A stretch of DNA of 64,000 bases. Origin: Thermothelomyces thermophilus ATCC 42464. Lineage: Eukaryota > Ascomycota > Sordariomycetes > Sordariales > Chaetomiaceae. Shown here piece after piece: positions 11,713-44,705 of the stretch (its first letter is position 1; the number at the start of each line of letters is the position of its first letter). The position numbers were made by a program, and so were the translations under genes. The stretch covers positions 3,224,001 through 3,288,000 of the forward strand of contig NC_016477.1 in NCBI RefSeq assembly GCF_000226095.1, read 5' to 3'. The notes under the pieces were generated by a model, which saw only the letters and a program-made list of their open reading frames with translations, was not told the origin of the DNA and searched no databases.

Positions 11713-12578
11713 TTCGTAGCGGTGCCGAGAGTTCCAACTACCAAACTGAGATTGTTTCACTTGGAAATTTGCGAAACAAGGAGCGCGTCCCTGGTACCTC
11801 AGCGGCTTTGTCGAGCAAGCGTCCACCACATACAAGTGCGCGGCATTGGCGATTTGCGATCACAGAAACCAATATTCAGAAGAGCTCAGAGTGTGGCCAA
11901 TGCAGTGTCGGAGAAAATGTGAATTTTAGGGATCCGGAAAGAAATACGGATTACGCCAGTTCGGCACATGCGCCAGCTCTGTCTCGCTTCGTTGGCCCAA
12001 AGGACGGCTCGTCCGAACAATGTTGGGGTGGCACAGCCCCAAAGCACTCGAATCTTGCATAAGGGGCAACAAGAAACCTGCAAGTCCGAAACTCGAACCT
12101 AGCTCGACTCTGCATTGGCATCAGAAAAGTGGTGCGCACGCTCGGTACGGTATGTCGAGCGTGGGATTGACCCCTCTAAACGGAGCACAGTGGCGGTTCT
12201 GGTTAGCCAAACAACCGCATCTTGCAACTTTCTGCGGGAAGCAATGCTCATGGTTGGAGGCAAAACCAGGTCAGGGACGCCAAAGCAGCCAACCGTTGGG
12301 TCAGGATCGTTTGACGGAGCGGGGCATTATTTTAGCCAATCAAAAGCCCTTGTTACTGCATAACTGGAAGGTGGGGTAGGCGGGATCAGGTGACAGCGCG
12401 TTCCCTGGATACACGCGTCAGGGAGTCGCCTCGCGTCATTCTCGCCAGGTTCGATCAAGCAGACGGCCACGGGCACAAGCAGCAACGGGCCATCCAGAAA
12501 CTGGCCGCACCCACACAACTCTCTGGTATTTTTCTTGTCGAAGCGATGCCATGATAGCGACTCACACGTCTGTCGAAG
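11713..12578. promoter_or_regulatory. Divergent promoter region between RVS167-like and DUF2439 genes
   Basis: About 870 nt separate the two ATGs. One copy of the decamer TACGGATTAC lies at 11945-11954. No coding frame is convincing. A shared bidirectional promoter is inferred from gene orientation only. Confidence 0.35.
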
Positions 12579-15500
12579 ATGCCGTCTATGACCTCCTCGC
12601 GGCCAGCTCCTGCGGGCTCATTGGACTCGGGCAACGGTGGACGCAGCGCCGCGGTCCTCGAGTTCATTTGCCTCTTTACCCATGACCTCCGCAAGAAGCA
12701 GAAGAGATGGGAAGACGGCCGCCTCAGATACCATACCTTCAACAAGCGCGTCATGGTCTACGATGACCGCGGCAACTTTGTCGGAGATCTGCATTGGACA
12801 CGTGAAGAAGAGTTTGGTGAAGGCGAAGAAGTTCAGCTGGAGCACGGGACCGCCATTATTCAGGTCATGGACTGCGTCGGCCGCAAAGAGCAGGATTTAT
12901 CGGAGTTGTTGGACAAGAGGGCGAAAGAGAAGGAACAGCGTCAAGCACGCCTTTTGGGGTGTCCGCCCCTGGCCGGCCCATCACCGACCACCCCCGTTGC
13001 TGGACCCCGCGCCCAAGCACATTTTCAAACTCGTCACCGGCCCTTAAATCATCTGCTGGGGACCCCGACAGGACACTACGGCCGGGCCGTGGTCCCGGCC
13101 GAGTCTCCATTCGAGTTGCGGCAGAAAGCCGATGGCAATGCGAACGACAGCCCCGACTCGCGTCCTTCGAAACGGAGTAGACGCGACATAACACCACCGA
13201 GCAAGAAGGGTTATGCTCAGAATTTATTTGGTGCTACATTGTCATTGTCTGCTGTTCCACTGAGCTCGGCCCCCCTGCGACGATCAGCGAATTCCACCTA
13301 CCGCGAGCAAGACACATCGACACCTCAACAACAACCTGGGGAAGATGCCAAACAAGGAGTCAACGATGAAACCAGGCATAACGGACAACTTGCAAGTGGC
13401 GTTCGGGGTCCATCTTCTACCACTTCTGTGAATTCAAGTTCACCGAAGAAGGCGGTTGCGGCGCCCTCCGTAAGAACAGGTGAGGAAGCTGGTGGACGCG
13501 AAGATAGGATCTCGCTTCAGTCTTCATCAAAGAGTCTTCTTTGGTCTCATGGAGGGAAAGCAGTCCCAAGGCCGCAGAGCGGAGGGTGTGAATCGACCGA
13601 AGGCATTGGCCGACCTACGACCTCCATTGGCAAGAGTGGGTTGTTGACAGTTGCCGCCCGACGGTCAGAGGACCAGTCGCGAGTCCAAAGCGAGGAAATG
13701 GCCCAGCGTATACTGGAATTTTCCAAGGGAACCTGTCATGGCGAATCGAGCACCAACGCGCAAGCCAGCGTGCCAGGGTCTTCGCGCTCTCAAGCGATTG
13801 TCCTGGACGAAGCCACGAGCATTGAATCAAACCCGAGACAAAGATTCGGGGAACCTAGGCGAGAAGTGAATGAGATAGCTGTTCCTCGCCACGACTCTCT
13901 GGGCGAGGCACCAAAGTCTTCCAAGAGTGACGGATTGCCGCGAACGGCAGTTGAAACCCAGACTGCCGAACCGAGGCCGACGGGGGAGGACTTTGAAGAT
14001 GCCCAAAGGCCGCCAATGGAGGAGAGAACGGAGCTGCGACTAAAGCGCCGACAAAAACGTGGCCTCTTGCTGCTTTCCGAGCAGAGGAATCGAACAAAGC
14101 AACCACGATCACAGGGTGCGCCAGCCGACGAGTCGAACCCCGCAGGCAGAGACATAGAGCGGCCTGTCCACTCCGTCGCGGTTGAACCAAGTCTTGGAGC
14201 TGCCTGTCAAACTGCCGACGCTACCTTGTCGGCGCAACAGGGTGGATCAGGTCCTTCTTCGCCCGCTGTTTCCGAGAACTCCTCAGAAGAACTCGATCCT
14301 CTACCGCCACAGCCTTCACCACATCAGGATAGCCGGCGTGGAAGTAAGGTTGGGAACAACGCAGATCCGTCGATGCTGCAGGTGGGAACTACCACTTCAA
14401 CTGAGCCTACAGAGAGACCAGTACATCCTGCAGGCGCGTCAAAACCAGACAATGATACCGGCGCCGAGGAAAGTGATACTGAGGAACTACCGCGTTCTTA
14501 TCGGGACAGGAGGATGCGATTGAGGGCTAAGGCTTCTGCACGAGCTCCCGATGAACCGGACGACTCAGGTGGCCTCGACGAAGAAGCATTATCGGAAGCT
14601 CAGACAGAGATTCCAACGTTGAGGCCCTCGCGCCGGACTCGCAAGACAGAGTGTATGGATGATCAGGGGTCGGGTCGCCCGAGGAAGAAGGCTCGAAAGG
14701 TCGACTCCGAGGATAGTGCCAAAGAGCTGCCTGGGGCTCAGGTTAAACCACGACTAGCCAAGCTCAGCAGGAAGAGCGTCAAAAGCAGGGAGATTTTTGG
14801 GCTTGTACCCTCCTCCAGTCCTCCTGCCATATTGGCGAATGCGGCCCGAGCAGTTGTCACTGAGGATCGGGGAGGACCATCTCCAGTGTCGGGCCGACCA
14901 CAACCATCCATTCCTAAGTTGGCGATTAATTCTCATGAAGCTGCTCCGCCTGCTGTTCAGCAGTCCGACTCGGATCCTCATAACAGGGCGAACGGACGAC
15001 TGGATGAGACGACCCGAAAGGACCAAGCGACAGCCACTGCAGTGCTACAGTCTGGTCATATGACGCGCCGAAGCGTCGCCCGCCCGACACCGAACGACTC
15101 CGCCGTAGGAAGCGGTAATGACAAAGAAATGGTTGCACGAGCCTCCACCTCCTCCGGGCCCCAGGGCATTACCGCACCTGAAAAGGCTGTTGCTCAGGCG
15201 ACATCAAGGCCGCAAGGTGACACCGGGGAGAGAACACCCGCAGCGCCTGCAACGGACAGCGAAGTGCTGCAACCACGGTCAAACAACGAGCAGCCACGAT
15301 TGCCAGAACAGCCTCAAGCGCCTATGAACAATCCTGCCGACGTCGGGCCCAATTCTCGTGAAACCAAGATGAACGCGATGCCACGTCCAGATGGACCAGC
15401 AGCTGGGTCTGCCCGCCCCAGAATAGCCAACCCAGCGACGCGGGGCCGTAAGGCTGCGTTAGAGTCCGACGCCGCAGGCCAAGTTCCTCGGTCCATCCTG

Positions 15501-15692
15501 CCCCCGGAGCGAGCCCCTGCGTTGCTCGAAGGTACGCGGGGGTTACACGTACGGCCGGAACCCGCCGCCGCCGCCCGCGAAAGTGAGCGTCCCAAACGGC
15601 AGATGAGGTACCCTGGCTTCACGTCAGCAAAGGGGGGCGGGCCCTGGAGTCGGGAAGCACACGATCTGCTGGAGAGCGCTCGGCCCGAATGA
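12579..15692 (+). CDS. DUF2439 protein of the Mte1/Dbl2/ZGRF1 group
   Basis: A single uninterrupted exon of 1037 residues. Residues about 25-110 form the DUF2439 domain: a beta-rich module starting AAVLEFICLFTHDLRKKQKRW, with YHTFNKRVMVYD and LHWT motifs. Family knowledge: S. cerevisiae Mte1, S. pombe Dbl2 and the N-terminus of vertebrate ZGRF1 share it; they work with the Mph1/Fml1/FANCM helicase at D-loops and stalled forks. The remaining 900 residues are charged and disordered, rich in Ser/Pro/Arg, with several basic nuclear-localisation-like runs (for example RPRKKARKVD) and acidic patches. The final residues (GGPWSREAHDLLE) look like a short conserved tail motif. No helicase domain is present, so it resembles the yeast, not the vertebrate, form. 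ATG at 12588 is an alternative start. Confidence 0.8.
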   Translation: MPSMTSSRPAPAGSLDSGNGGRSAAVLEFICLFTHDLRKKQKRWEDGRLRYHTFNKRVMVYDDRGNFVGDLHWTREEEFGEGEEVQLEHGTAIIQVMDCVGRKEQDLSELLDKRAKEKEQRQARLLGCPPLAGPSPTTPVAGPRAQAHFQTRHRPLNHLLGTPTGHYGRAVVPAESPFELRQKADGNANDSPDSRPSKRSRRDITPPSKKGYAQNLFGATLSLSAVPLSSAPLRRSANSTYREQDTSTPQQQPGEDAKQGVNDETRHNGQLASGVRGPSSTTSVNSSSPKKAVAAPSVRTGEEAGGREDRISLQSSSKSLLWSHGGKAVPRPQSGGCESTEGIGRPTTSIGKSGLLTVAARRSEDQSRVQSEEMAQRILEFSKGTCHGESSTNAQASVPGSSRSQAIVLDEATSIESNPRQRFGEPRREVNEIAVPRHDSLGEAPKSSKSDGLPRTAVETQTAEPRPTGEDFEDAQRPPMEERTELRLKRRQKRGLLLLSEQRNRTKQPRSQGAPADESNPAGRDIERPVHSVAVEPSLGAACQTADATLSAQQGGSGPSSPAVSENSSEELDPLPPQPSPHQDSRRGSKVGNNADPSMLQVGTTTSTEPTERPVHPAGASKPDNDTGAEESDTEELPRSYRDRRMRLRAKASARAPDEPDDSGGLDEEALSEAQTEIPTLRPSRRTRKTECMDDQGSGRPRKKARKVDSEDSAKELPGAQVKPRLAKLSRKSVKSREIFGLVPSSSPPAILANAARAVVTEDRGGPSPVSGRPQPSIPKLAINSHEAAPPAVQQSDSDPHNRANGRLDETTRKDQATATAVLQSGHMTRRSVARPTPNDSAVGSGNDKEMVARASTSSGPQGITAPEKAVAQATSRPQGDTGERTPAAPATDSEVLQPRSNNEQPRLPEQPQAPMNNPADVGPNSRETKMNAMPRPDGPAAGSARPRIANPATRGRKAALESDAAGQVPRSILPPERAPALLEGTRGLHVRPEPAAAARESERPKRQMRYPGFTSAKGGGPWSREAHDLLESARPE

Positions 15693-18319: not shown

Positions 18320-19724
18320 ATGCCCCCAGGCTCGAGACGCCCGTCTACCTCACACCAGAAGCCCTCCGGCAGCATGGTACGGCAGCATTCTAGCCGGAGC
18401 GCGGTTGACCAGGACCCAATCATCCCTACCCCTGAAACCCAAGAGCTCTACAACAGGTGGAGGGTGATGGAGGATCGGCTCACAGCAGAATCCCTGAGCC
18501 AAATTCCAAATGACCATGCAGCCTTCCTCTATCCTCCCTCGCCGTCGCAAGCTACGACACAGTCTCAGGCCAGCACTGCGTACTCCACTGCGCAAAGCAT
18601 GGATGATATGGACGCGAGGGACCCGTCGCGACCCGATAAACCGAAGCGTGGCCGCCAAGGCCCGTTGACGGGTCCGAAGAAGCTGAAGACCAATTTGATG
18701 CGCAAACTGAAAGCCTGTAAAGAGTGCCGCGAGCGCAGGGTGGAGGTAAGAAGGCCGGATCCACTCACCCACCGACGTTGCTCTCACCCCGTTGCTGCTA
18801 ACAGCCGATTCATTAGTGTACTCACCGGAATCTCACTCTCTTCGAGCAAGAGTATCAGAGGCGGAAGCAAGCTCGAGCAGCAGCGGACCAAGAGGTCAAC
18901 ACCGGACCCCACAATCTCCAAGCTACACTACCATCCCAAGATGCTCCGTCTCAGCAGAGATTAGGGCATGAGGCCGACTTTGACGGCATAGGAACCGGCC
19001 AGATTCAGCTCTCAGACCCATCCTTGAACCCTTCGCGTAGAATCCTGGTTGGGAGCGAGGACGCACATACGGAGACCGACCTTTTGCAGGATAACCGAAT
19101 CAGGGTCCGACCTTACGTGGCAGCACTCCTGTCCTCGTTCGAAGGCACCGGCCTCCCTACATCCACCAGCCTTCCCGCATCTACCCATACCGCCGCCTAT
19201 ACCGCCACCCCGTACATGACCCTTACCCCGCCTCAGCCCGTTGACAAAGACAAACTGATAGGCAAACAACGCGCCCCAAGGAGCAGAGAATGGGTCTGTC
19301 ACGGGAGCTACGGCGAGTCTCGGACGTGTATCCAGACATTCACAGACTTGTCAAGTCTGATACGCCACTTCAGAGATAGCCATGCCCAGTTCTCCGATCA
19401 ATGGTTCAGCTGGAGCTGCGCTATGTGCAAACTAGACGTAGCCGAGACCTTTCCAGAGGTCCCTCCAAGCGAACCCTGCCCCCAGTGTCGCGACCCGGAG
19501 CCATATACCTGGCTCAGATGTTGCTGGGGGAAGGTGGCCAATCCTTCAGCAGGACCTCAGCCGAGTTTCCCCAGCCGCGTTCCAAGCCGAGACGGCTCGT
19601 CCTCGAATCCTTCTTCGTGGACCAACCTTTCATTTTTAGGCCCTTCCGGAGGGGGCTACGGCTACTACTCTCCCACCATGTCCTCCTCGGGAAGTCTCTG
19701 GGGGTACTTCTATAGCGGGGGCGG

Positions 19725-19757
<33 letters not shown>

Positions 19758-20373
19758 TCAGGCTTATTATGCCTCCTCACCCAAAGTCCCGCCGCCGACA
19801 ATGATGGGCGCCAGGTCACTTGCGTCGTCGTCGTCCTGCGCGACGAGGCCGACACTACTTCCCCTCCTCGCCTATTTCTGGCCCCCGTCGCCCCGGTCTT
19901 CCTCCTCCTCCGGGACCGGCCGACCGGACGGCAAACCGTCGTCGCTAGCGCGCCGAGTCTGTCCCGCCGCCGTCGTGCTCGCCGTCGTCGCCCTCGCCCC
20001 GCTGCTCGGCCGCTGGCCGTCGCCGCCGCCCGCCTCTCCGACCCTCCCTGGCGGCGTCGCCATCGGCGTCGACGCCGCCGAGCGCGCCCTCTCCGGCATC
20101 GCGCGCTCCGCCGCGCGCGGCGGCGGCGACGACCACCACCACCACCACCTCCTCCGCCGCCCCAGCATCCTGGAGCTGTCGATGGCCTGCATCGCGGCCG
20201 GCCTGGTCGCGTCGTGGGTGTTTTGGCACGTCAGGGACCGGTGGTGCGGTCGGCGGCGGCCGTCACGGTGGTGGGGTCCTCCTCCTCCCGGTGAGGCGGG
20301 ACAGCTCGAGCCGGACCCACCGCCGCCGGCGCGGGTGCAGGTGCAGGTGCAGGTGCAGGTGCAGGTGCGTTGA
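18320..20373 (+). CDS. Half-Zn2Cys6 plus C2H2-like protein with C-terminal hydrophobic segments
   Basis: Two exons (18320-18745, 18817-20373; 71-nt intron, GTAAGA donor, TTAG acceptor) give 660 residues. A basic region with LKACKECRERRVEC has the CX2CX6C spacing (Cys133, 136, 143) of the first half of a Zn2Cys6 cluster, followed by His145. No second half is seen. Residues about 302-331 resemble a C2H2 finger (Cys303, Cys313, His326, His331), and two CxxC pairs follow (about 343-346 and 363-366). A 14-glycine run is at about 443-456. Two hydrophobic stretches lie near residues 523-541 and 597-614, long enough to span a membrane. DNA binding is suggested by family, not shown. The intron interrupts the zinc motif between Glu142 and Cys143, so a model without it would miss the motif. 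Confidence 0.7.
19717..19758 (+). repeat. GGN run encoding 14 glycines
   Basis: Fourteen consecutive GGN codons, mostly GGC, in the zinc-motif gene. Likely slippage-prone. Confidence 0.8.
20335..20364 (+). repeat. Five tandem GTGCAG units at the 3' end of the gene
   Basis: Five exact 6-bp units encode alternating Val-Gln just before the stop codon, a beta-strand-like or tail microsatellite. Confidence 0.8.
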
Positions 20374-22843
20374 GTTTCGAGGGGACTCACTGCTCGACTA
20401 ACGGACGGAGTGTTTTTTATTTTTCTTTCTTGTTTCATTTTTTTTTAATTTAAAATTTCATTTTGTGGAAAGAAGGGGGAGCAGGCGCGGTACGGGCGTC
20501 GCGATGTTTCTGGTTCCATCTTGGGCTGTTTCCGAAAGGGTTTGGTAGGTAGGTGCTGGGTGGATTATTTGCTTATCGCGCTCTCATGCCATCTTGGTTT
20601 CTTGTCCTCTTCTTGGGTCTCTTTGTTATCCATTGCTCCTTCTTCGTTTGTTAGCACGGCGCAGTTTCCTCCTTTCCTTTTGACAAGTGCATTAGTAAAC
20701 AGGGTGGCCACGAAATGGTCGGCGCAGGGATTTGGTGGGCTTGGCTGCATGGTTGGGCGGAGGATTGACCTGGTTTGCATTTCCTTTCGTCTCATTAGCG
20801 TCTGGACTTTGCAGGCTATCAGAGCCTTGCCATCATCGGTTTGTTCTGCTTGTGCCGGTTAGGTGGGTCAGCAGCGACCTCGGTGGGAGCGTTGCCGGGC
20901 CTTTCCCTTTTTCTATTTTTTCTTTTCCTTTTTGTTTTGTTTCGTTTTTTTGTTTCTGGCTTTTGTCAACTTTTCGGAGTTTGGAGTTTTGGAGAGGGAT
21001 ACGTTGTTCGTCTTGAGATATATCAGAACCTCAACTCAGTGTTCTGTCGCGGAGGGCAGTCCTGTAACTAACGGGCCGATATGGATTTAGCGGGAGTTTG
21101 AGGACAAGGGCATGTGATTTTGGGGGTGCTTCAAGAGAACTCTTCGTTGAGCAATCAACAAACCATTGGATTCTTTTATTCACTTTAAAAACTTCACCCT
21201 CTGGTTCAAGGAAGGTGACATGAGGAAGAGCCTGTGGAAAGCTTGAAGCCAACCTTGAAACACTGCCACTATGCTAGCACTGAGAGACACCAAGCACCTT
21301 ACTGCTTCTGGCAGCTGAATGGGGCACTGCACGCTTCGGCGGGTGACGATTCAATGGAGTCCCGAGGTGCTACCCCAATATCGATTTGGAGGAGTCATCC
21401 TGTATTTGAGCCAATAACGTACTCCGTAGAGGCATTTCGTATCTGCCTCTTCTCAAACCCGAGTCGAAGGATGCACTGGCTCAATTGACTCAGCTCAATT
21501 GCGCGTGGGGTAGCACAGGAGGGAGACGGACTCGACACTGTGTAAGCAGGGTCGGCGCGATTCCCGCTTCTCCACACAATACTATGTACATACATACGGA
21601 AGTAGTTCGTTGCTTGCTACACTAATCCGTACACTACACTAACTTACCGTATCTCGAAGACAGGCGAAGGCAACAGATCTGTCCGCCTCGGAAAGCGCCT
21701 CGATTGCGCTTAGCCATGCTCTGCTTTCCAAGAGAGGTAATTCATCGATTACTCTGTAATCATACGCACAGAAACCTTGGAGGCCGCCGTTTACAAGGCA
21801 ATTGCGAGCGCCAACGTTACCGCACTTCTTCACTCGGTGCTGGAACCGCCTCCTTGTCTCTCTCGAGCGATCAATGGCAAGAACTCGAGTCCAAATGTAT
21901 CGCTCATATGGCTGGTACTGTGCGGCAAGGTCGGAGCGCGACCTTCAGCAACAGGGCACCAGAATGGTTGATTGACTCATCCGACGTTAGCCAATTGAAG
22001 CCGTTTTCATGGCGGTGCGGCATCACTGGCATGAGCCGCTTCGCTCGGGTCAGACTGAGGTTTCTCTTCGTGTGGGGCAAGCACTTGCATGGGTTTACTC
22101 GCCGTGTTCTGCAACCATGCAGGTCATTTCTCCGCTCCGGCTCGTCGGTCAATGGTACGGGCGACAAGATATTTTTCTGTATAGCTGCCAAGGTGGACAT
22201 GCTCAGACTGCGCTCTCGAGATGAGAGGCTGCGCAGAAAATTGTCCGACTCCATGTACCTGTCCCGCGGCCCAGAAGGGGTCGCGCTATTCCTGATTGAG
22301 CTCGCCGAAATGCTGGGGGAGACAACCTTCGCTGCCTGCGCCTTGAAGTCCTGGCTCACAGTTGCAGCAGCTCTTGTGCCAGAAGGCAGTGAAATATCGG
22401 CCTGACTCCTCCGGACGCAAGTTTTGTTCTTTCCCCCCTTTCCTTCCCGTCGAAAACTCAAGGTTTAGTCGGTGCATTGCCTGGCTGCTGTCACGCTGTT
22501 CCCGGCGTTGCTAATTCCAACATTTGCGACCCCCAAGGTAGGTAGTGCCTGAGTTCAGCATCTTCAAGCACCCCGCCAACGCTCACCTCACCGCAGACTC
22601 GGCAAAGACTGAGCTCCTGGAGCTGGCAATCACTGAACCAACCAACCAACCAACTCCTGCACGTGAGCAGGAAACCTCTCATTGGATCGCCGAAGAATCA
22701 ATCATCACTCCTATTATCACAAACGGCTTTGTTTGAATACCAGTTTTCTCGAGCCGGATCTTGCGCAACTCGGTGACATTTCCAACCTTCTCCACTCCAC
22801 CTCACTCTCGACCCCGTACATTACCTCCGACGTATCAGTACCG
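20374..22843. other. Gene-poor stretch; possible long leader of the next gene
   Basis: T-rich sequence around 20410-21000 is probably 3' UTR and terminator of the upstream gene. A 233-codon frame at 21704-22405 has an antisense frame of nearly equal length and no domain I can defend. GTACTCCGTA lies at 21419-21428. The segment 22500-22843 is CAACC/TCAC-rich and leader-like. Confidence 0.45.
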
Positions 22844-25273
22844 ATGGCCGGAATGGCCCGACACGGCTCAGTCGGTGCCTTCAACGGGTTCTCCGTGTGC
22901 CAGCCGGCACTCGGAGCCGCCCTGCAGTGGCTCCCCGCGATTGGCACCCCGGAGCTCGACGAGATGATCAACGCGCTCCTCCCTGGCCCTGCTTCTATCC
23001 AGGACAAGCGCGCTCACATCTCGATGGACTTTTTTGAGTACTCCCGCCAGACCGGAGAGACATTCAAGTTCTACCCTGTTCCTCTGGGAACCTTCACCCC
23101 TGTGACGGCCTCGCCGGCGACCTCCACCCTTCACGACTCGGGCTACGCGTCGAGCTTCAACCATTCTCCCGCACTCTCGGAGCAGGGGGGTTCCTGGACA
23201 CAATCCCCCGCACCATTTGCCCCGGCGGTCTTCGACGCAAAGACCAAGCCACGGTCGTCTGCCTCCAAGAAGTCCAGCGCTTCCAGCTCGCGGCAGCAGA
23301 AAATTGACTTTGCGAATCACCCCGGCATGCGTATCCTGACCAAGGATGGCCGGGATGTCACCAACTCTGCGTCTCGAGGCTGCAAGACCAAGGAGCAGCG
23401 GGACCACGCCCACCTGATGCGGATCATCAAGGCGTGCGATTCGTGCAAGAGGAAGAAGGTCCGCTGCGACCCAAGCCACAGGAAGCGCAACGCCTCGCAA
23501 GCTTCCACGGTGCAGCCTGAGCAGAAGCCTGCCAAGAGGGTAAAGAAGGCAGAAGAGCCGAACCAAGCGGCAGCCTTGGACCCCCCGATCGACTTGACTG
23601 CTGCAGAGCCTCTCACAGCCGAGAACCTCCCTTTCCCAACCGTCGACCTCGGCTTTCCTCCAGAGTCGGAGGACTTTTGGAACGAGTTCATCACCCTTGA
23701 CCAGGAGCCAGTCGCAGCTGCTCCTGTACCTGCGCTTGATGACTTCATCTTTGATTCATTCACCGACTTTCAGAGCTTCTTGTCCCCGAGCTCTGGTTCA
23801 TCCGCAACTTCGCCCTCCCAAGTTCTCACCCCAGTCACGCCAGAACGGGCTGTCGCCTCGCCGATTGTCGCACCCGACCACTCCATCAAGGTCTCCGGGG
23901 AAGCCTCGCCTCAAGATCCGGCCGTTCCATACCTTAATCCGGGCGTTGCTCTTGGCACCAACTACCTCGACTTCAACCTGTATTCGCCGGGCCCTGACGC
24001 GTATGACGAAGACCCTGTTCTCCAGATGCGGGATCTCGGCAGCCAACAACACTCTCCACAATCGACTGCCTCCGCTGCTGACAACTTCCTCGACCATAAT
24101 GCACCTAGCGTCTCTGCAACGCATGTTGACGTGAGCGCCCAGTCGCAAACATCCGCCAGCCAACCGTACGGCGCAGCGGGTCACGCCACCGTCTCGCCGC
24201 TTGACCTTGCCCGGTATTACGATCCTGGAGACACGCGCCATCATGATCCACAACCCAGCACCCCTCGGGTATCCACGAATCGGAAGACGATGACCAATCA
24301 CAGCAGGCTACTACAAGAACCTGTTGTCGATCATGGCTGCTACAGGCGCGTTGATGCCAATGAATCGGGCGTCATTGCTGCTACTTCCGCCCAGTCTCCG
24401 GTTGCTCACGCTTCGTCACCGGCTGTCCTTAGCAGCTATGCCAGCGCTGTGGCTGCCAACGCCCCGCAGCCGTCGGTTAGTCCGAGCAGGGACCCTAGAT
24501 CCAGGGTAATATGTGTTTCGGCACCTTGCGGCGGATCGCACTCATCAGTCCGCTCACGTGCTCCAACCAAGGCAACTCAATCCGACGTGTTAGTTTCTGG
24601 CGCATATGCTAAGTCATCAGCGCCAATTGCTACTCGTCATGGCGGATCGCCACTATGTTCAACGGAGGCCGCATTCTCAGCAGCGGCCGGTGTACCGTCT
24701 CAACACACGTCTGCTGGCGTCGCCGTCCGTGCCGTCATGCCAAGTGGCGCACGCTGCTCGGCGTCCAGTCAACGGCTGGCCGGCCGTCAACCCGGATTGT
24801 CCGCCGTTCTTGATGGGCAGCATGTCACGCAGCAGCAAGACGCTGTTGCCGTCATCAATGCCGTTCGGGCAACCATGCTGCTCTCGACCCTGCCGACGCG
24901 GTGCAACGTTGCTGGAAAGGATGTGACTGTCACCACATCCTGCTTCCAGCTTGCCGTGTTCGGTCTTGTCTCCTTCCTCTGCGCCTGCGCCTTGCAAGCG
25001 CACCTGGCACGTCAAGTCAGCCTCGTCAACATCCTTGCCATTACAACATTATCACTGGCCCGGCTGGCACCTCGGTGCTCCGGGCTGCCGGGCGCGGCAC
25101 GGGCCGCCTCGAACACCTTGCCGCCACCAGCGCAGCCTGGCGTCGTGGACAATTTCTTGTCCATGATCCAGCCTGTGGTCACCGGGAGCTCCAAAGACCA
25201 ACGGTCTGCGCTCTCGCGATGGGCCAGGGGCATCTTGCCTCGCCCACCGTTGGTGAGGACATTGAGGGTGTAA
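22844..25273 (+). CDS. Half-Zn2Cys6 protein with C-terminal hydrophobic segments
   Basis: One exon; 809-810 residues from ATG 22844. The frame is open upstream to 22682 but lacks a better ATG. A conserved block (GCKTKEQRDHAHLMRIIKAC) runs into CDSCKRKKVRCDPSH: Cys198, Cys201 and Cys208 have CX2CX6C spacing with His212 after it, as in the neighbour at 18320-20373. The second half of a Zn2Cys6 cluster is missing. The middle is acidic and Pro/Ser-rich, activation-domain-like (DDFIFDSFTDF). Near residues 699-740 there are two hydrophobic stretches, including FQLAVFGLVSFLCACAL, that could anchor the protein in a membrane. Related sequences with the KEQRDHAHLMRIIKAC block are widespread in Sordariomycetes (family knowledge) and are annotated only as hypothetical or zinc-cluster-like. 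Function is not known. Confidence 0.75.
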   Translation: MAGMARHGSVGAFNGFSVCQPALGAALQWLPAIGTPELDEMINALLPGPASIQDKRAHISMDFFEYSRQTGETFKFYPVPLGTFTPVTASPATSTLHDSGYASSFNHSPALSEQGGSWTQSPAPFAPAVFDAKTKPRSSASKKSSASSSRQQKIDFANHPGMRILTKDGRDVTNSASRGCKTKEQRDHAHLMRIIKACDSCKRKKVRCDPSHRKRNASQASTVQPEQKPAKRVKKAEEPNQAAALDPPIDLTAAEPLTAENLPFPTVDLGFPPESEDFWNEFITLDQEPVAAAPVPALDDFIFDSFTDFQSFLSPSSGSSATSPSQVLTPVTPERAVASPIVAPDHSIKVSGEASPQDPAVPYLNPGVALGTNYLDFNLYSPGPDAYDEDPVLQMRDLGSQQHSPQSTASAADNFLDHNAPSVSATHVDVSAQSQTSASQPYGAAGHATVSPLDLARYYDPGDTRHHDPQPSTPRVSTNRKTMTNHSRLLQEPVVDHGCYRRVDANESGVIAATSAQSPVAHASSPAVLSSYASAVAANAPQPSVSPSRDPRSRVICVSAPCGGSHSSVRSRAPTKATQSDVLVSGAYAKSSAPIATRHGGSPLCSTEAAFSAAAGVPSQHTSAGVAVRAVMPSGARCSASSQRLAGRQPGLSAVLDGQHVTQQQDAVAVINAVRATMLLSTLPTRCNVAGKDVTVTTSCFQLAVFGLVSFLCACALQAHLARQVSLVNILAITTLSLARLAPRCSGLPGAARAASNTLPPPAQPGVVDNFLSMIQPVVTGSSKDQRSALSRWARGILPRPPLVRTLRV

Positions 25274-26247
25274 ACCCCCGGTGTGTGTGCGCATGCGTGT
25301 TTTGATATGACTTGTAATGGTTTCCTGTTTTGTTGCAAGCGAGTGCATTTTGACTATGATACCCCCGGGTCGGATTGAGACATGCGGTCGTCCTCTTCTC
25401 TTCTCTTGTATATACTATTTTCAGAGTTCGCTCTGTTGCCCAGATGGTTGGTTGAGCGTGGTTTGTTGGTATGTTAGGATCGGGAGGAGGACGGCTTGGT
25501 GGACTGTGAGGACTTTTGACTTTTGAGTCTGAGGGGCGATGCTCTCTCTCTCTCCCTGCCGTTGTTTTCTGGGCAGGGTAGCGCCGCCTTTTTTGGCTTG
25601 ACAATTGAAGGTCCTCGCAGACCATCGTAAATTTTACTTGACTGTCCCTCTGCTTGCCGTGATACTGTTTCCGATGCGTTCATGTTGCCCTTGGGATGCA
25701 TCTTTGCGAAGGATGTGCGACCATTCTGGTGCTTTGCTTGCATGAGGTTAATTATACGGATTACAATCTACTTCGTAGGGGGTTTCCCAATTCGGGTTGT
25801 CGTACAGTACGTTTTGCACCCCGGTACGGATAACCAAGGTTCCTCACAAGGTCGGTTTTTGCCGTGGACCCACTCTTTTTTTTCTCGTCGATTTCGGAGC
25901 CACTTCACTTTTGATCGTGCTCCAAGGCCACATGTGCCGTGGGGTCATAGACGACATCTTCTTCAAGGTTTGAAATAGGCATGTCAAACGCACCCGGGCC
26001 CTTGCATTGACTCTAGACGGCTGGGTGGCTCGTGGCCTGCTTGAGAAACCATCTATCTATCTATCTGGTTGAGGTGCTGGCATGGCACAAACAGCTTCTT
26101 TGTTGTTCAGGCAAATCACCCCTAGCTCGTTTCTCAAGCCTTCGTCTTGAACAACAGCACCCGCCGTTGATTCACATATCAATTGAAAGCGGCTTGGGTT
26201 GAGTTGTGACTGTGCAGAGTTGGGATAAAACATTGCAAGGCGGAAAA
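25274..26247. other. Intergenic region
   Basis: Holds a TACGGATTAC decamer (25755-25764), a CT tract near 25540-25556 and a short CTAT repeat (about 26049-26065). No supported gene. Confidence 0.5.
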
Positions 26248-28152
26248 ATGGCAGCCACGCTCTTCGAGTCCGTTTTGGCCATCGGCCTCAAAACCACCGC
26301 GTTTCTGCAGTCGCTCTTTCTGTTTCCTTTCAACACGGTATTGCGAGTCGTGCAGCTTTCCCCCAGTTTCCGCCAAACAGACCAGCCAATTCTGCCCTGC
26401 TCAACCTCTGGCCCTACTGGCCCTACTGGCCCTACTGGCCCTACATCCTCCTCTTCCGCCGGCGAGGCCCGCAACATCAGTAACAACAAGGACGACGACG
26501 TGGGCGACGGCGGCTGCCACAACGAGACCGGTATGGCACCCGCCGCATCCGCATCCGCATCCGCCTCTGCGGCCTCTGCGGCCTCTGCGCGAGTCTCCAG
26601 CATCGTCCCTGCTCTTCCCCGCGCTCCTCCCTCTGGGAGAGAAAATCACGCCCCGGCTGCGGACACTCCGGTGAAGGCCGACGCCCAGCTAGACGCCGCG
26701 CTCTCCCGCTTCGATGCCAACGGGGCGGGGCTGGCAGGAGAGACTCAGTGGCCGGGTGCGCTGCAAAGCGTAATCGACGGTACAGGAAGCACCACAGGCG
26801 ACGGAACCGGCAAGTCAACAGCCCATGACGGCACTGCCTTGCCGCAGCAGCAACCTGATCGGGTCAACTCGGGCGACGGCACTCCCGAAGGGGTAACACG
26901 GGCGCCTCCGGTCCCCTTGACGCATACGGTTCCTCAGACTAGCAGGCTGAAGGAGACCGCACCGACAATGCAGCCGGACGGCCCGACGGTGCAGGTCAGC
27001 GCCAAGAGGGAGACCCCGGAACAGGCAGCGGAAAAGGCCATGCACAGCCGGTTTATGAGGGAGGCTCTGAATATGGTAGGTTTTGCGTGCGGGTACAGCC
27101 CCAAACGTGCCGCTGACATGGTGCAGGCCAGACTTGCTCTCAGAACCAATGAGACGCCCGTCGGCTGCGTGCTTGTTTACAAGGGACGAGTCATTGCCCG
27201 AGGGATGAACGCGACCAACGTCACCCGTAACGGGACGAGGCATGCGGAGCTCATGGCCATATCGGCCTTGTTGTCCTACGCCCCCGCCGCCGACCTCGAG
27301 CCAGCGAAGGGCGCTGCTGCCATGGACAAGGCAACGGGAGGGAGAATGCCCCTGGGCGACCGGACGAACGAGACGCAGGTTGCCGAGGAGACCAGCACCT
27401 GGGGCGACGTGGACCCCAGAGACGGCCACCTGTATCCCTACGGACAGAAGCTGCACCCCTCCCCCCGTGTGGACCCGTCGGTCATCAGCGAGTGCATCCT
27501 GTACGTCACGGTCGAGCCTTGCGTCATGTGCGCATCCTTGCTCCGGCAGCTTGGGATCAAGAAGGTCTACTTTGGCGCCGTCAACGACAAGTTTGGCGGA
27601 ACCGGAGGTGTGTTTAGCATCCATAAGAACTCACCTTACTCGATGGCCTCGGCGCCTCCCTCGCCCGCGCCCCAGAACGGCAAGGGCATCCCGAGACCTG
27701 TTCTCGAGCCCCGCCCCGCGTCGACCGACGTGGTCACGGAGAAATCGACGCCGGCGGACGGAACCAGAGACGAGGAAGACCTCTGTCCCAATCCCATTGA
27801 CACTTCGACGCTTCCTGGCGACGGCGGTAACATTGAGCGTGGATACGAGGCCGAAGGAGGCTGGGGCCGAGACGAGGCCGTGACCTTGCTGCGACAGTTT
27901 TATGTTCAGGAGAACAACCGAGGTCAGTGCTTCCGTGAACCGAGTATCCCATCTCGTGTGTTAACTGACGTGGGTGCAGCACCTGTCCCGAGAAAGAAGG
28001 AAGGCCGAGCTGCTCGTTTAGCGGCTATGATGGAGCGTGACGGCCGCCCGATCGACATGAGCCTTATATCGCAGGAGGAGAACTCCGGAACGAGCACACC
28101 TGCCAAGCAAGAGTCGGCAGCTGGCGAACCGGCCGAGTCCATAGCCGCCTGA
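26248..28152 (+). CDS. TAD2: tRNA adenosine-34 deaminase catalytic subunit (Tad2/ADAT2)
   Basis: Three exons (26248-27075, 27127-27922, 27980-28152) give 598 residues. Both introns (51 and 57 nt) are multiples of three without stops, so an unspliced reading stays open; they have GTAGGT and GTCAGT donors, branch sites (GCTGAC, TTAACTGAC) and CAG acceptors. Removing the first joins EALNM directly to ARLALRTNETPVGC, the family motif. Zinc and catalysis: HAE (27241-27249) and PCxxC (27517-27531). Known role: with Tad3, deaminates adenosine 34 to inosine in tRNA anticodons. The gap between HAE and PCxxC, over 80 residues, is longer than in yeast. The N-terminal 250 residues are poorly conserved, with a hydrophobic start, a GPT repeat and Ala/Ser runs. 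A later start near 27040 (MHSRFMREALNM) is possible. Confidence 0.85.
   Translation: MAATLFESVLAIGLKTTAFLQSLFLFPFNTVLRVVQLSPSFRQTDQPILPCSTSGPTGPTGPTGPTSSSSAGEARNISNNKDDDVGDGGCHNETGMAPAASASASASAASAASARVSSIVPALPRAPPSGRENHAPAADTPVKADAQLDAALSRFDANGAGLAGETQWPGALQSVIDGTGSTTGDGTGKSTAHDGTALPQQQPDRVNSGDGTPEGVTRAPPVPLTHTVPQTSRLKETAPTMQPDGPTVQVSAKRETPEQAAEKAMHSRFMREALNMVGFACGYSPKRAADMVQARLALRTNETPVGCVLVYKGRVIARGMNATNVTRNGTRHAELMAISALLSYAPAADLEPAKGAAAMDKATGGRMPLGDRTNETQVAEETSTWGDVDPRDGHLYPYGQKLHPSPRVDPSVISECILYVTVEPCVMCASLLRQLGIKKVYFGAVNDKFGGTGGVFSIHKNSPYSMASAPPSPAPQNGKGIPRPVLEPRPASTDVVTEKSTPADGTRDEEDLCPNPIDTSTLPGDGGNIERGYEAEGGWGRDEAVTLLRQFYVQENNRGQCFREPSIPSRVLTDVGAAPVPRKKEGRAARLAAMMERDGRPIDMSLISQEENSGTSTPAKQESAAGEPAESIAA
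26410..26445 (+). repeat. Four 9-bp GGCCCTACT units
   Basis: Near-exact tandem units encode a Gly-Pro-Thr repeat in the N-terminal extension of the Tad2 gene; the last unit differs by one base. Confidence 0.75.
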
Positions 28153-28726: not shown

Positions 28727-30118
28727 TTACTCTTCTTTGTCCCGATGCCGTTCATGTCCACGATGCGCTCTCCCCATTCCCTCCTCCAGAGCCCGGATAA
28801 CTCTCTCTCCCCACGCCTTGGCCGCGCCCGTCCGGCCCTCTCCAGCCTGCTCGGAGAAACTGACCCTTCCGGTCCACCACTCCAGCCAATTCTCTGCCCG
28901 CGCGCCACCTCTATCCCCACCCTCGGCCCTCAGCAAGCCCACGCTGACGTCGATGAGATCGGGCCGGAACTTGTCGTGCCAGAAGACCGTGGCGCCACAG
29001 CGGGCACAGAACTCGCGCATCCGCCCGGGGGAGGACTCGTATTGCCTCAACGGGGTCCCGGGGGGGAGGGCGGCAAAGTCGAGCGGGACGGGCTGCCGGC
29101 AGTTCCTCGTTATCGACGATGGAGTTTGGTGGTGGATGAGAATGTTGCGGCGGGGGATGAAGGCCCACGTCTGGATCTCAAAGCCCGAGGTCAGCCGGCA
29201 GCTTGGGCAGGCGCAGGTACCGGCGAGGTAGTAAGCGTAAGAGGACCCGTCGCTGCCCCCGCGCTCGTTGTCGTCCTTGTCCTCGTCCTCGTCCTCGTCC
29301 TCGTCCCTGGGCCCCCGCGAGCGGAGATACCACCGCTCGTGGGCCGGGTTGGCGACCACGGCCGGCGACGTGCTGGCGTAGGCCAGGAGCAGGTCCGGGT
29401 AGCCCGAATCCGGGTTCAGCGGCGAGTCCTTCGGCGCTGGCCGGGTTATGCGGAGGCCGATGGAACCGCAGTGGCATGCCGCCAGGAGGGTGTCGCCTTC
29501 ACCGCCGCCGCCGCCGCCGCTGCTGCTGCCGTCGTCCTCGTCGTCGTCGTTATCGACGGTTCCTGCCTCTTCTTGATTTTCTTCTTCTTCTTCTTCCTCT
29601 TCCTCCTCCTTACCATCTGAGAGCCGGGAAAGCCCGGCCGGCAGCCAGACTGCCAGCCCGCCGTCCTTGGTGTCTCGGACGTGCCGGTGGCGCCATTGCT
29701 CGGGCAACTTGTATCGTTCCTTCTTCTCCCCCTCCCGCTTCTCCTCCTCCTCCTCCTCGTCGGGGACGTGGGTGATGGTGCCCGTCGCTACCTCCCACTC
29801 CCACTCCCGTTCCCCGGCGCCAGCAGAAGCGGACGGGCGCCGGGCGCGGAAGACGTGGCATCCGCAGGTGGAGCAGAAGTATGCGGTGGTCGTGGGTGAG
29901 AGTGCGTACGCTTCCAGCCCCGTGGTGGCGGTGGCCGGCGGCGGCGAGACCGGGGCGTACGAGGCGCACAGGACGCCGGTCGTGCGGCGGCAGGTGCTGC
30001 AGTGGCAGAAGAACGCGTCGGAGAAGACGCCCCGGCTGCCTCGTGCGCTCAGCGTCTGCCGGGCCGCGCCGCAGTGGCACGAGATGGTGATGGAAGTGCT
30101 ATTAGTTGGGGAGACCAT
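28727..30118 (-). CDS. Double GFA (CENP-V/Mss4-fold) domain protein
   Basis: A single exon of 463 residues from ATG 30118; the frame continues nine nt upstream only through a TTG codon. Two copies of the GFA zinc fold are visible. The first has ISCHCGAA (Cys14, Cys16), FFCHCSTCRR (Cys38-43) and YFCSTCGCHVF (Cys82, Cys85). The second has AACHCGSI, CACPSCRLTSG and FCARCGATVFWH. They are separated by Glu/Asp-rich inserts coded by GAG/GAC repeats (for example about 29576-29616 and 29280-29305 on the plus strand). The GFA family is named after bacterial glutathione-dependent formaldehyde-activating enzyme, but most fungal members, including tandem forms, have no proven reaction. Probably cytosolic, as there is no signal peptide. 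Confidence 0.8.
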   Translation of the reverse strand: MVSPTNSTSITISCHCGAARQTLSARGSRGVFSDAFFCHCSTCRRTTGVLCASYAPVSPPPATATTGLEAYALSPTTTAYFCSTCGCHVFRARRPSASAGAGEREWEWEVATGTITHVPDEEEEEEKREGEKKERYKLPEQWRHRHVRDTKDGGLAVWLPAGLSRLSDGKEEEEEEEEEENQEEAGTVDNDDDEDDGSSSGGGGGGEGDTLLAACHCGSIGLRITRPAPKDSPLNPDSGYPDLLLAYASTSPAVVANPAHERWYLRSRGPRDEDEDEDEDKDDNERGGSDGSSYAYYLAGTCACPSCRLTSGFEIQTWAFIPRRNILIHHQTPSSITRNCRQPVPLDFAALPPGTPLRQYESSPGRMREFCARCGATVFWHDKFRPDLIDVSVGLLRAEGGDRGGARAENWLEWWTGRVSFSEQAGEGRTGAAKAWGERVIRALEEGMGRAHRGHERHRDKEE

Positions 30119-30665
30119 GGCTAGCAAGGTTGGATGGAGGGAGGAATTGTGAGAGAGGGCTTATGTGTGAGTGAGAGACGGAGAGAGAGAGAGTGTGTGA
30201 GATAGGCTTGAAAAGGCTTAGGAAGTTCTTGGGGTTAACAAGTGATGTGAGCGGCCTCTTAAAAATATATAGACATATTATAAGCCAAGGAGGAACTTCC
30301 AGTCCTGGTAGCAAGTCGTCCCGGCTGCGACAATCCGCTAGGGACCGACCTTCAGCCGAAACGCGGGCCGCCACTCCGCATGTATGTATGCACAATAAGG
30401 AGTCCTTGAAAGCGCAAAAGTGACGTTGCGGGGTGTCAGTCAGCAGTCGGGACCAAAATTGGCCGAGTTGCAGCCGTTTGATTGCCTGTCGCTGAGCAAT
30501 GATTTGTTCAAGAGAGGCTGGGTAATGTGAACCACACACAATTCCACTCAGGAGACTCTTCTCATATCTTGAACAACCGCTCGAATTACGTGAATATGCT
30601 ACATCCCCAACGTTCTATTCTCACAGATACATGCTTGGAAAGAAACAAAAACCAAAACATCGCAA
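30119..30665. promoter_or_regulatory. Upstream region of the GFA gene and 3' end of the transporter gene
   Basis: About 550 nt; a GA/GT-rich leader tract (30165-30200) precedes the GFA start on the minus strand. No additional gene is seen. Confidence 0.35.
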
Positions 30666-41084: not shown

Positions 41085-44000
41085 CTACCTGCTGCTGATG
41101 TGCTGGATGGCAGTAAGCCACTTTTGTTCGTCAGACCTATGGCGGGATTGTCAGCGAGATCTGCAAGCAAATGGGAAGCAGTGCGGACAACTCACTTGTC
41201 GAACTTGAGCAGCTTCCCCAGCACGGGTACTAGCTGCGCCCGCAGCCGGTTGTCCTTCTGCTCCAAGAACTGCAGCAGGATCGTCTTCAGATACATGGTG
41301 TCCTGGTTGCCGCCGCCGCCCTGCTGCGATCCTGTCCCGCTCACGCTGCCGGACCGCGTCGAATCCATGGAACTCCGGTGGGAGCTGGCGGCAGCCGGCG
41401 ACGACAGCCTGGACTGCAGCGACTTGGCCTCCTTGGCGAGCTTGTCATACCGCAGCCGGTAGTCATCCAGCGCGCGTCGCAGTTCGGCGTTCTTCTTCTC
41501 CATCTCCCGGACCTGCTGCTCCGACCCGTCCAGCGTCGCCCTCAGGTTCGACACCGTCGTGCGCATCTCGGCGACCTCCGTTTCCGCCCGGTCCTCGTCC
41601 GCCTCCAGCTCCTCCCTCCTCCGCCGCCACTCCCGCTCCCGGTGCTCCAACTCGTCCTTCTCGCTCGCCAGCGCCTTGACCTCCCTCTCCAGGTCCCGGA
41701 CCCTCTGCCGCAGCTCCTCCGTCTCCCTGGCCTTGCGCCGCGCCAGCGCGCTCGACTCGTCCTCCAGCCGGTCCCGCTCCTCGATGGCCGCCTCCATCTT
41801 GGCGCGCATCTCGCGTACCTTGCCGTCGGCCCGCTCGTCCACGTCCGCCAGCAGCCGGCGCATCGTCTCGGTCTCGCGCGTGCGCTCGCCCAGCATCTTC
41901 CGCGCCTCGGCCAGCTCCTCGTCGAGGCTCTCGCACTGCGCCTGGCTTTCTTTGAGCTGAACGCTCAGCTCGGCCGTCTGGTCGCGCATGCTGCCCAGAA
42001 GGCTCTGCGCGTTGCTGTACTGGCTCGCCTTGAGCTCGAGTTCTTCGCGAAGGATGGTCTGTTCTTTCTTCAGCCGGGCTGCCTCATCCTCGAGCTCGCT
42101 GATGCGAGGGCGCAGCTTGGCTGCTTCGTCTTGGATCCGTTGGAGCTCGCGGGTCGCCTTCTCCTCGCGAGCCGAGATCTCGATCTTCTCGGCTTCGGAA
42201 CGCCGGAGGTCGCGTCCTGCGATGCGCTTCTCATCTTCGAGGCGGAGCCGTGCGTTGGTTTCTTGCGTGACTTTGTCGTTGAGCGTCTTGATTTCGCCTT
42301 CGCGGTCGGACGCGAGGCGCTGCGCCCGGCTCAACTCCGCCTTGAGCTCCTTCTCCCGCTTCTCGAGGTTGCGCAGCTCGGCCGTCTTTGCCGCAAGTTC
42401 GTCACGTGTGGTTTTGAGTGCGGCCGAGTCTTGCCGCAGGCTCTTGAGTTCGGGCTGCGCCTTCTGCAGGACTTCCCGAAGTTCCGTGAGATCCTTGTAC
42501 CGGGTCTGGGCCAATTGCTGCGCGGCAGCCAAGTCGGACTGCAGTGTCGCAGACTTCATCTTGAGGTTTTCAAACTCCTCCTTCAGAGACTCATGCTCGC
42601 TCTGAAGTTCCGTGTTGCCTTTGGCTGCGGATGCCGAGGTTTCAACCTCCTTCTCGAGCTCCGCGATACGCTCCTTTAGCGCTCGTTTTTCTGCTTCTAG
42701 CTCCTTGATCCTCTCCTTTGCTTCCACGTGATCCTGACCAATCGTCATCAGATTCTCTTGAAGGTTCTCAATCTCCTCTCGCAGGTCCTCTTCCGTCTTG
42801 CGCTGTTTCGATAGCCTCTCTATCCGCTGATCCTTCTCCGCCAATTCCTCTTGCAGTCGGGCCAACTCTGCCTGCAGCTCATCATATGCAGATCCTTCTA
42901 CTGATGATAAAGCCGGCTGGTCTCCGGTTGACGCCTCGCTGGGAGTAGGCTCGGTGGCGGTAGTAGCTGCCGAAGCGCCACCCTTCTTCTTTTTCTTGTT
43001 CTTCTTCTTGCCGCCGCCGGCTGGGGGAGGAGCCAGAGATTCTCCTTGGATTGGCGCCGAGCTTGCGGGAGACACAGCAGGAGTCGGTGCCGACTGTGTT
43101 TGTTTGATGAGCTCCTCGATCCTGGATTCATCCTCAGCCTTGGCCTTCTTCAACGTCTCGATCTCCGATGTGAGATTCTTGATTTTCTCATCCAGGGAAG
43201 ACTTGGCCTCGCCTGCCTTCTTCAACTCGATCTCCAGCTCCTTGCTCCGGTTTTCCGAGGTGGTGAGCTGAGCTTCTTTCTCTTTAACTGCCTCGGCGGC
43301 TTCGCCTTTCGTTTTCTCGACCTGCGCTTCAAGATCTCTCAGCTTGGTCTGCGCCTTATCCAGACGCTCGCTAAGAGTTGAGATCTCCGTGTTCCTGGCC
43401 TCGAGTTGTTTCTCGACGGCGGCCTTCACCGCAATGGCATCTCTAGTTTCGCTGAGCTCCCTCGTAGTGTTCTCGAGGCTCTCAACGAGGCCAGCGCTGT
43501 GTTCCTTGGCAACAGACAGTTCCTCCTTTAGATTCTTGACTTCGGCTCGGAGCTGCTCGACCTCTTCCGACTTCTTCTGAACTTCCGCTTGAAGCTGGGG
43601 AATCTCGTCGTCAAACGAGAAGAAAGTTTCCCCGCTTTCGCCTTCCGCAGGCTTCTCCCTTGGTGACTCGGCTTTCTTGTCGGTGGTCGTCTTCTCCTCC
43701 GCAGGAGCTGTGCCCTTCGTCTCTGGTGTAGGGGCCTTTTCTGGCTGGGCAAATTTCAGAGCGGTAAGTTCTTCCCTCAATCTCGCCAGCTCCTTATCCG
43801 CCTCATCTGCCTTCTTCTTGTAAGTCTCCTTCTCGCTTGTTACGCGTTTCAGCTCCTCCATGACCATGTCGCCTTTCAGGTTGATCTGGTTCAGATACTC
43901 CACGAGGGCTTCAGGATCCCTGATGGATGTGAGCGGGGTGTTTTCCTTGAGGGCCTTCTCGAATGGTTCTATGGACTTTGCTCGGCTGTGTGCGATGCGG

Positions 44001-44705
44001 TAGGAGCGTAAGAGTTCTAAAAAAGTCAGTCTTGGGGTCCTGGAAGGATGGGCCAGCTGGGGCAAGGGCCGTGCGAACCTGGGTATGTGTTCTCCAGCCT
44101 TTCGAGTTTTCGTAGTCGAGCCCGCACTTCTGCAGGCAACTCCGATGGCGCCGCTGTGGCGGCAGGCTGGCCCCGATCCGCGTTCTCGGCACCGGCTTTG
44201 CTTGCCACTCCATTATCGCCGGCAGAGTCGCTAGAGGCTTCGTTGACGGAAGTGCCAGCACTGGGCTTCGTTGCGCCGTTCTCGGAACCGCTAGCTTTCG
44301 CATCTTTTTCTACAGAAGATGGGGTTGATACCCGCGTAGGGCCGTTCGAGTCGTCCATATCGTCGATGACAAAAGCGGCCTCAAAGACAGCGGGATCCGG
44401 GTTGGTTCCCTCGCCATTGCCATTGCCGTTCTTGCCTGTGAGGTCTTCACTCGCTTTCTTGGCTGGCCTAGAGCGCCGGGCCGGGGATTGAGTTCCTGCG
44501 GTGCTCGAAGATCGTGACCGGCGGGTTTCTGCGCTCGGGTGTGTCGACGCAGACCTGTGCGATTCCAGACTTGCTCGTTGTCTCGCTTGTTCTTCGGCGA
44601 TCGTGCGATCAATTGCGCCCTTGAGCCTCTGCCATGACCATTGTCAGTTCCGGCGGCGGGGGGTTTAGTTGTGGGAAGCTGCAGCCATCTACATACCTGG
44701 AACAT
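41085..44705 (-). CDS. IMH1: GRIP-domain golgin (Imh1-like)
   Basis: Four exons on the minus strand (44705-44697, 44628-44079, 44016-41196, 41136-41085) give 1143 residues. The first coding exon is only 9 nt (Met-Phe-Gln); splicing it to RLKGAIDRTIAEEQARQR gives the usual golgin start. A conserved block near residue 180 (PELLRSYRIAHSRA) is restored by the second intron. Nearly everything from about 200 to 1030 is heptad-rich coiled coil (Glu/Lys/Leu/Arg), with a short KKKNKKKKKGG break. The C-terminal GRIP domain (YLKTILLQFLEQ, LVPVLGKLLKF, ending in EQKWLTAI) is split by the last intron. Known role: docks through Arl1-GTP on trans-Golgi membranes and tethers endosome-derived vesicles. The second intron's donor (GTTCGC) is weak, but the frame and family motif support it. 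Confidence 0.9.

Follow-up and report, generated by a model that had tools for sequence, protein, structure and literature searches.

Two neighbouring genes of Thermothelomyces thermophilus ATCC 42464 raise the question of whether a fungal regulator may be built on one half of a Zn2Cys6 cluster and, at the same time, be held in a membrane by its C-terminal part. Both genes (referred to here as gene 1 and gene 2) are located in a stretch of 64,000 nucleotides, the window, which is part of contig 6 (NC_016477.1) of a genome of 38,744,216 bases in seven contigs, all of which were searched. Zn2Cys6 proteins constitute a very large family of fungal regulators, and a preliminary description of this DNA had proposed that both products carry the first half of such a cluster, lack the second and end in two hydrophobic stretches, suggesting membrane-tethered regulators or divergent copies from an old duplication. 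Our results suggest that both proteins may be divergent relatives of the fungal Zn2Cys6 regulators, with a half module for one zinc and a putative membrane hairpin, a reading to which we assign a probability of about 0.38. As a variant of a known regulator type, the pair is real and modest.

The reading frames were evaluated with a codon score, for which nine other long frames from the window served as the training set; by this score the frame proposed for each gene was ranked among the six possible ones. The genes and the parts of their modules were localised as follows:

18320-18745, plus strand: gene 1 exon 1, residues 1-142; the proposed frame is favoured in 3 of 3 scoring windows
18746-18816, plus strand: gene 1 intron (GTAAGA...CTAAC...TAG, of the GT-AG type), phase 0, immediately 5' of the codon for the third Cys
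18817-20373, plus strand: gene 1 exon 2, residues 143-660 plus stop; the proposed frame is top in 8 of 12 scoring windows
22844-25273, plus strand: gene 2, a single exon without intron, 809 amino acids (aa) plus stop; the proposed frame is top in 15 of 19 scoring windows
18644-18715, plus strand: upstream part of the gene 1 module (KRGRQGPLT...LMRKLKA)
18716-18825, plus strand: gene 1 half-cluster CX2CX6C-X-H, residues 133-145, with the intron inside the span
23372-23434, plus strand: upstream helix part of the gene 2 module, helical in the fold model
23435-23479, plus strand: gene 2 half-cluster CX2CX6CX3H, residues 198-212

The gene 1 model, with one intron and a product of 660 aa, corresponds to the splice pair that yielded the longest frame. 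Its product contains CKECRERRVEC at residues 133-143 followed by His 145, and that of gene 2 contains CDSCKRKKVRC at residues 198-208 followed by His 212. When the motifs of the whole proteins were listed, exactly one CX2CX6C was found in each, and both failed the six-Cys definition CX2CX6CX5-12CX2CX6-8C, which is the pattern given for the Zn2Cys6 family in PMC6471507. The Pfam profile of the family, PF00172, aligned with gene 2 only through positions 1-14 of its 39, scoring 11.8 bits where the cut-off is 21, and showed no match in gene 1; no other Pfam or NCBIfam family reached its cut-off in either protein (NCBIfam being run on gene 1 exon 2 only). A sequence search of solved structures left gene 2 unmatched and gave two chance-level matches for residues 1-387 of gene 1 (E values 0.99 and 1.2). 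The fold model of the gene 2 module had a mean predicted local distance difference test score (pLDDT) of 63.6 (4 sequences), which is low confidence, and Foldseek comparison of the fold models with the PDB returned nothing significant, with one match at E 6.4. The half-cluster followed by His, with the second half missing, is supported and strengthened in both genes, and the module is beyond chance, as judged from the genome search with the third half-cluster gene described below.

Relatives of the module were found elsewhere in the genome. A third half-cluster gene is located on contig 1 at about 3945931-3947774, a locus found by the block of gene 1 at E 2.5e-4 and by that of gene 2 at E 0.033; in the opposite direction, the block of the third gene retrieved both window genes, with E 5.0e-6 for gene 2 and 8.6e-4 for gene 1. 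The third gene reads GPLTALQRERAHLIRKIGACPDCRRRRVA, followed by an intron and then CHPNHHNMTW. This intron is of phase 0 and lies directly 5' of the third Cys, in the same position and phase as that of gene 1, and gene 2 does not have it. The upstream stretch, the three Cys, the basic stretch and the His were common to all three modules, and in 3 of 3 proteins the His was situated no more than four residues past the third Cys (after one intervening residue in gene 1 and after three in gene 2 and the third gene). The third gene seems to run on into a region that looks caspase-like and contains a DCAYY stretch, and no Pfam family was found in the pieces of this gene that were tested; the half-cluster module may be joined to different partners.

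Two genes with all six Cys, one on contig 3 and one on contig 4, have this upstream extension as well (RGRKGPL... and RRRGPL...), placed before the cluster. Both have the spacing CX2CX6CX5CX2CX11C, and they are themselves unusual clusters because the last gap of 11 exceeds the 6-8 of the family. The contig 3 gene was found by the block of the third gene at E 0.0045 and by that of gene 1 at E 0.017, and both six-Cys genes matched a consensus assembled by hand (E 1.4e-7 and 7.5e-5), values obtained with a biased query. With PF00172, the score of the contig 4 protein was 18.8 bits, below the cut-off, in one search and 25.7 bits in the genome-wide search. The genome holds at least three genes of the half-cluster kind and at least two of these six-Cys relatives. 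PF00172 had 125 matches in the genome, and seven of these places, picked for early-ending or two-piece matches, were inspected: the GPL extension did not appear in the upstream stretches shown for them, and four of the seven had no fourth Cys soon after the third in frame, where an intron seems likely, although some of them may be additional half-clusters. Two stretches of viral contigs fitted a pattern, and neither encodes a relative.

The similarity of the modules across three loci and the intron shared by gene 1 and the third gene suggest that the half-cluster derives from Zn2Cys6 proteins, as do the extension shared by the two six-Cys genes and the below-cut-off match of gene 2 to PF00172. 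With the Zn2Cys6 regulators the window proteins have in common the first cluster half and the basic stretch, and two six-Cys genes of this genome also have the upstream extension; they differ in having a His after the third Cys and no second CX2C..C half. Common descent with the six-Cys proteins is favoured, the module being too short for a firm tree, and the best interpretation of the half-cluster is that it derives from the contig 3 and 4 subgroup, in which case the direction of change would be loss, not gain, of the second half. The PF00172 profile used to count Zn2Cys6 proteins leaves both window proteins below its cut-off.

The loss of half of the six Cys ligands and the failure of either protein to reach any Pfam cut-off are also what would be seen if the half-cluster were a decaying relic that binds neither zinc nor DNA, the work being done by other parts such as the finger, the CX2C pair and the tails. 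We consider this unlikely, because three separate genes have kept the three Cys and the His along with the basic stretch, even though the window proteins align nowhere else.

The arrangement of the two genes, on the same strand, 2.5 kb apart and with module and tail in the same order, could also reflect a local tandem duplication followed by divergence; the preliminary description had considered an old duplication. In a pairwise search of the two proteins, only the module region aligned (E 1.3e-5 over 146 columns, with the composition correction off), and all the remaining stretches gave E 0.075 or worse. Identities in the module were 13/39 between the two neighbours, against 19/39 between gene 1 and the third gene and 17/41 between gene 2 and the third gene. 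At E values up to 10, the genome-wide search with the block of gene 1 did not bring up gene 2, nor the reverse, whereas each block found the third gene; furthermore, the gene 1 intron is common to the third gene and absent from gene 2. What survives of the duplication proposal is at most the module of about 40 aa. Local duplication is not supported, because the likeness is limited to the module and each copy is closer to the third gene, and we regard it as very improbable; the neighbourhood of the two genes may be a coincidence or the result of a very old event.

The second element of the reading, the putative hairpin, depends on the following stretches:

19954-20010, plus strand: gene 1 hydrophobic stretch 1, residues 522-540
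20167-20223, plus strand: gene 1 hydrophobic stretch 2, residues 593-611
24938-24994, plus strand: gene 2 hydrophobic stretch 1, residues 699-717
25016-25072, plus strand: gene 2 hydrophobic stretch 2, marginal, residues 725-743

Kyte-Doolittle (KD) hydropathy in a 19-residue window peaked at residues 522 (2.08) and 593 (1.94) of gene 1 and at residues 699 (2.07) and 725 (1.54) of gene 2, in agreement with the two stretches described near each C-terminus; the insertion-energy scale used below is an approximation. Taken as a sign of transmembrane segments, hydropathy supports two in gene 1 and one plus one marginal in gene 2, and the flanking charges are compatible with a hairpin whose two ends would face the cytosol or the nucleus. 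When gene 1 was shuffled, two separate windows with KD>=1.9 were obtained in 0 of 4000 cases and two with KD>=1.5 in 11 of 4000.

Controls were taken from 33 loci (the 30 best PF00172 matches and three others), two of which had no intact one-frame cluster, leaving 31 open reading frames; these were stop-to-stop frames of 43 to 933 aa and may hold untranslated sequence. By the insertion-energy scale a close pair of segments was present in both window genes, and among the controls at least one segment at <=2.1 was present in 9/31 and a pair within 100 aa in 1/31, a soft figure because many of the controls are short, probably cut by introns, and may stop before the C-terminus. The hairpin is proposed because the gene 1 pair was unmatched in 4000 shuffles and because a close pair was so rare among the controls. 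Membrane anchoring is plausible for the gene 1 product, its support for that of gene 2 is weak, and the anchor would be more likely real in the former than in the latter.

These same two results stand against a different interpretation, in which both proteins would be soluble nuclear regulators with a DNA- or chromatin-binding half-cluster, and the hydrophobic stretches would be buried helices or oligomerisation or activation segments. Such an interpretation is almost as probable as the first one, and likewise short of even chances. In its favour, hydropathy windows with KD>=1.5 were frequent in the controls (at least one in 15/31, and two within 100 aa in 2/31), and peaks equally strong on the Wimley-White scale were common among them.

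The softness of the control figure and the inability of the Wimley-White scale to set the tails apart from the controls are the first of several points that weigh against membrane-held half-cluster proteins. The second stretch of gene 2 is marginal because shuffles often yield such windows: two with KD>=1.5 were obtained in 581 of 4000 whole-protein shuffles (within 100 aa in 131 of 4000) and in 1266 of 4000 shuffles of the tail only. In three pieces of the third half-cluster gene that were tested by the insertion-energy scale, no segment at <=2.5 was found, and the tails do not define the group because this gene shows none in those pieces. Both of these results also fit soluble regulators. 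The fold models are of low confidence, with no significant Foldseek match, and the comparisons of module and tail cover one genome, which counts against the reading on the question of whether the His and the tails are conserved.

The coding signals must be weighed on the same side. By the codon score, the gene 1 windows in which the proposed frame was not on top fell in 19417-19716 and 19777-20076; it was beaten in two of the four windows from 19777 onward, and the gene 2 frame was beaten in four windows (24524-25063) that cover its first hydrophobic stretch. A score restricted to synonymous codons placed the proposed frame first in 2/2 windows of gene 1 exon 1, 5/11 of exon 2 and 10/19 of gene 2, and not in the last three windows of gene 1 (19777-20256); this score is weak, the neighbouring deaminase frame, itself in the training set, being first in only 11 of 15 windows. 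The guanine plus cytosine (GC) content of gene 2 over 24404-24763 was 0.46-0.47 at the third codon position versus 0.70-0.72 at the second. In favour of the hairpin reading, third-position GC was 0.81-0.95 over 19777-20256 of gene 1; it was 0.69-0.72 in the gene 2 windows that hold the hydrophobic part. The codon signals across both tails are mixed.

A scan for introns of 45-500 bases, using fixed donor and branch patterns, covered regions 19300-20373 and 24000-25250. In these regions it found no GT-AG intron candidate with a branch site whose removal would take out a tail, and the possibility that the tails lie in introns was rejected on this basis; the sole candidate of the scan, at 24001-24108 of gene 2, keeps the reading phase and precedes the tail. 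The frames of both genes are open to the end, and both tails are therefore probably translated.

Two further observations concern the tails. A full-cluster frame of 241 aa on contig 1 (around 2398228-2398317) contains a very hydrophobic pair; it may represent a second tailed factor or result from reading through into an intron. In gene 1, a run of 14 glycine codons (window 19717-19758, residues 443-456) is found ahead of the tail.

Both proteins keep, as a homologous module, the basic, helical upstream extension and the first cluster half (CX2CX6C) with the His after it, and both lack the second half. In the reading proposed here, the three Cys and the His would hold one zinc in a C3H site, and this zinc would place the first basic helix of the cluster on DNA or chromatin. 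Since only half of the normal contact surface would be available, dimers or helper domains would be required for binding, and gene 1 offers two candidates for such domains:

19297-19383, plus strand: gene 1 C2H2-like finger C-X9-C-X12-H-X4-H, residues 303-331
19417-19488, plus strand: gene 1 CX2C-X16-CX2C pair, residues 343-366

The finger region matched DUF7892 (E 0.029), zf-Di19 (E 0.37) and zf-C2H2_4 (E 4.3) in Pfam, all below cut-off, and no second copy of it was found in the genome at E values up to 10. Its model showed the beta-beta-alpha order at a mean pLDDT of 42.1 (1 sequence), which is low confidence. Less surely, the C-terminal pair would form a hairpin that keeps the protein in the endoplasmic reticulum or in the nuclear envelope, both of its termini facing the nucleus or cytosol, and the protein would either regulate chromatin while anchored to the envelope or stay latent until its release is required. 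If the half module does bind one zinc and DNA, a half cluster can suffice, which makes these genes a test of cluster function. It is doubtful that they represent a whole fungal class of membrane-held regulators in which loss of the second Zn2Cys6 half has left a one-zinc C3H module (CX2CX6CX1-3H) as the DNA-binding domain and a C-terminal hairpin serves as the anchor in the endoplasmic reticulum or nuclear envelope.

Among known systems, Sut1 and Sut2 of budding yeast are zinc-cluster proteins in which a spacer of more than 60 residues separates Cys 3 from Cys 4 (PMC5412356). The window proteins share with them the departure from the usual spacer of 5-12 residues and differ in that they hold no second CX2CX6C anywhere, and its absence from both excludes a split cluster of the Sut1 type. 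Nine dual-specificity factors of Aspergillus nidulans combine a Zn cluster with C2H2 fingers, two C2H2 coming first and one Zn cluster after them, and a gradual loss of C2H2 halves is described in this species (PMC5415576); the passages on these factors made no mention of a Zn cluster losing one of its halves. Gene 1 likewise pairs a cluster-derived module with a C2H2-like finger, but its half-cluster comes first and is followed by one finger-like motif with a 9-residue loop.

The fungal SREBP proteins (SrbA, Sre1) also have an N-terminal putative DNA-binding part and hydrophobic stretches nearer the C-terminus. SrbA is a basic helix-loop-helix (bHLH) factor activated by proteolysis (PMC4863583), whereas no bHLH domain is listed for the window proteins, and neither had a Pfam match to HLH or any other SREBP domain at E values up to 10. 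The comparison is an analogy only, and release by proteolysis in the manner of SREBP would be speculation. MtTRC-1, a Cys2His2 factor, was ruled out as either gene by the length of its coding region, 1,377 bp (PMC9552611). In literature searches covering the open-licence part of PubMed Central (PMC), neither the titles and abstract starts listed for half, atypical, incomplete or truncated clusters nor those listed for membrane-held fungal factors described this arrangement, which does not imply that it is unpublished. If the tails do anchor the proteins in a membrane, they would represent a further kind of membrane-held regulator, not met in those searches.

Other frames of the window (12558-15689, 26203-28149, 28730-30160 and 41195-44212) gave matches to a ZGRF1-like helicase N-terminal domain, a cytidine/deoxycytidylate-type deaminase, GFA and GRIP, and no pathway was seen that links these neighbours with genes 1 and 2. 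Between the two genes, an open frame of 259 aa (21626-22405), which had no Pfam family at E values up to 0.01, showed a slightly coding-like synonymous signal over 21840-22319.

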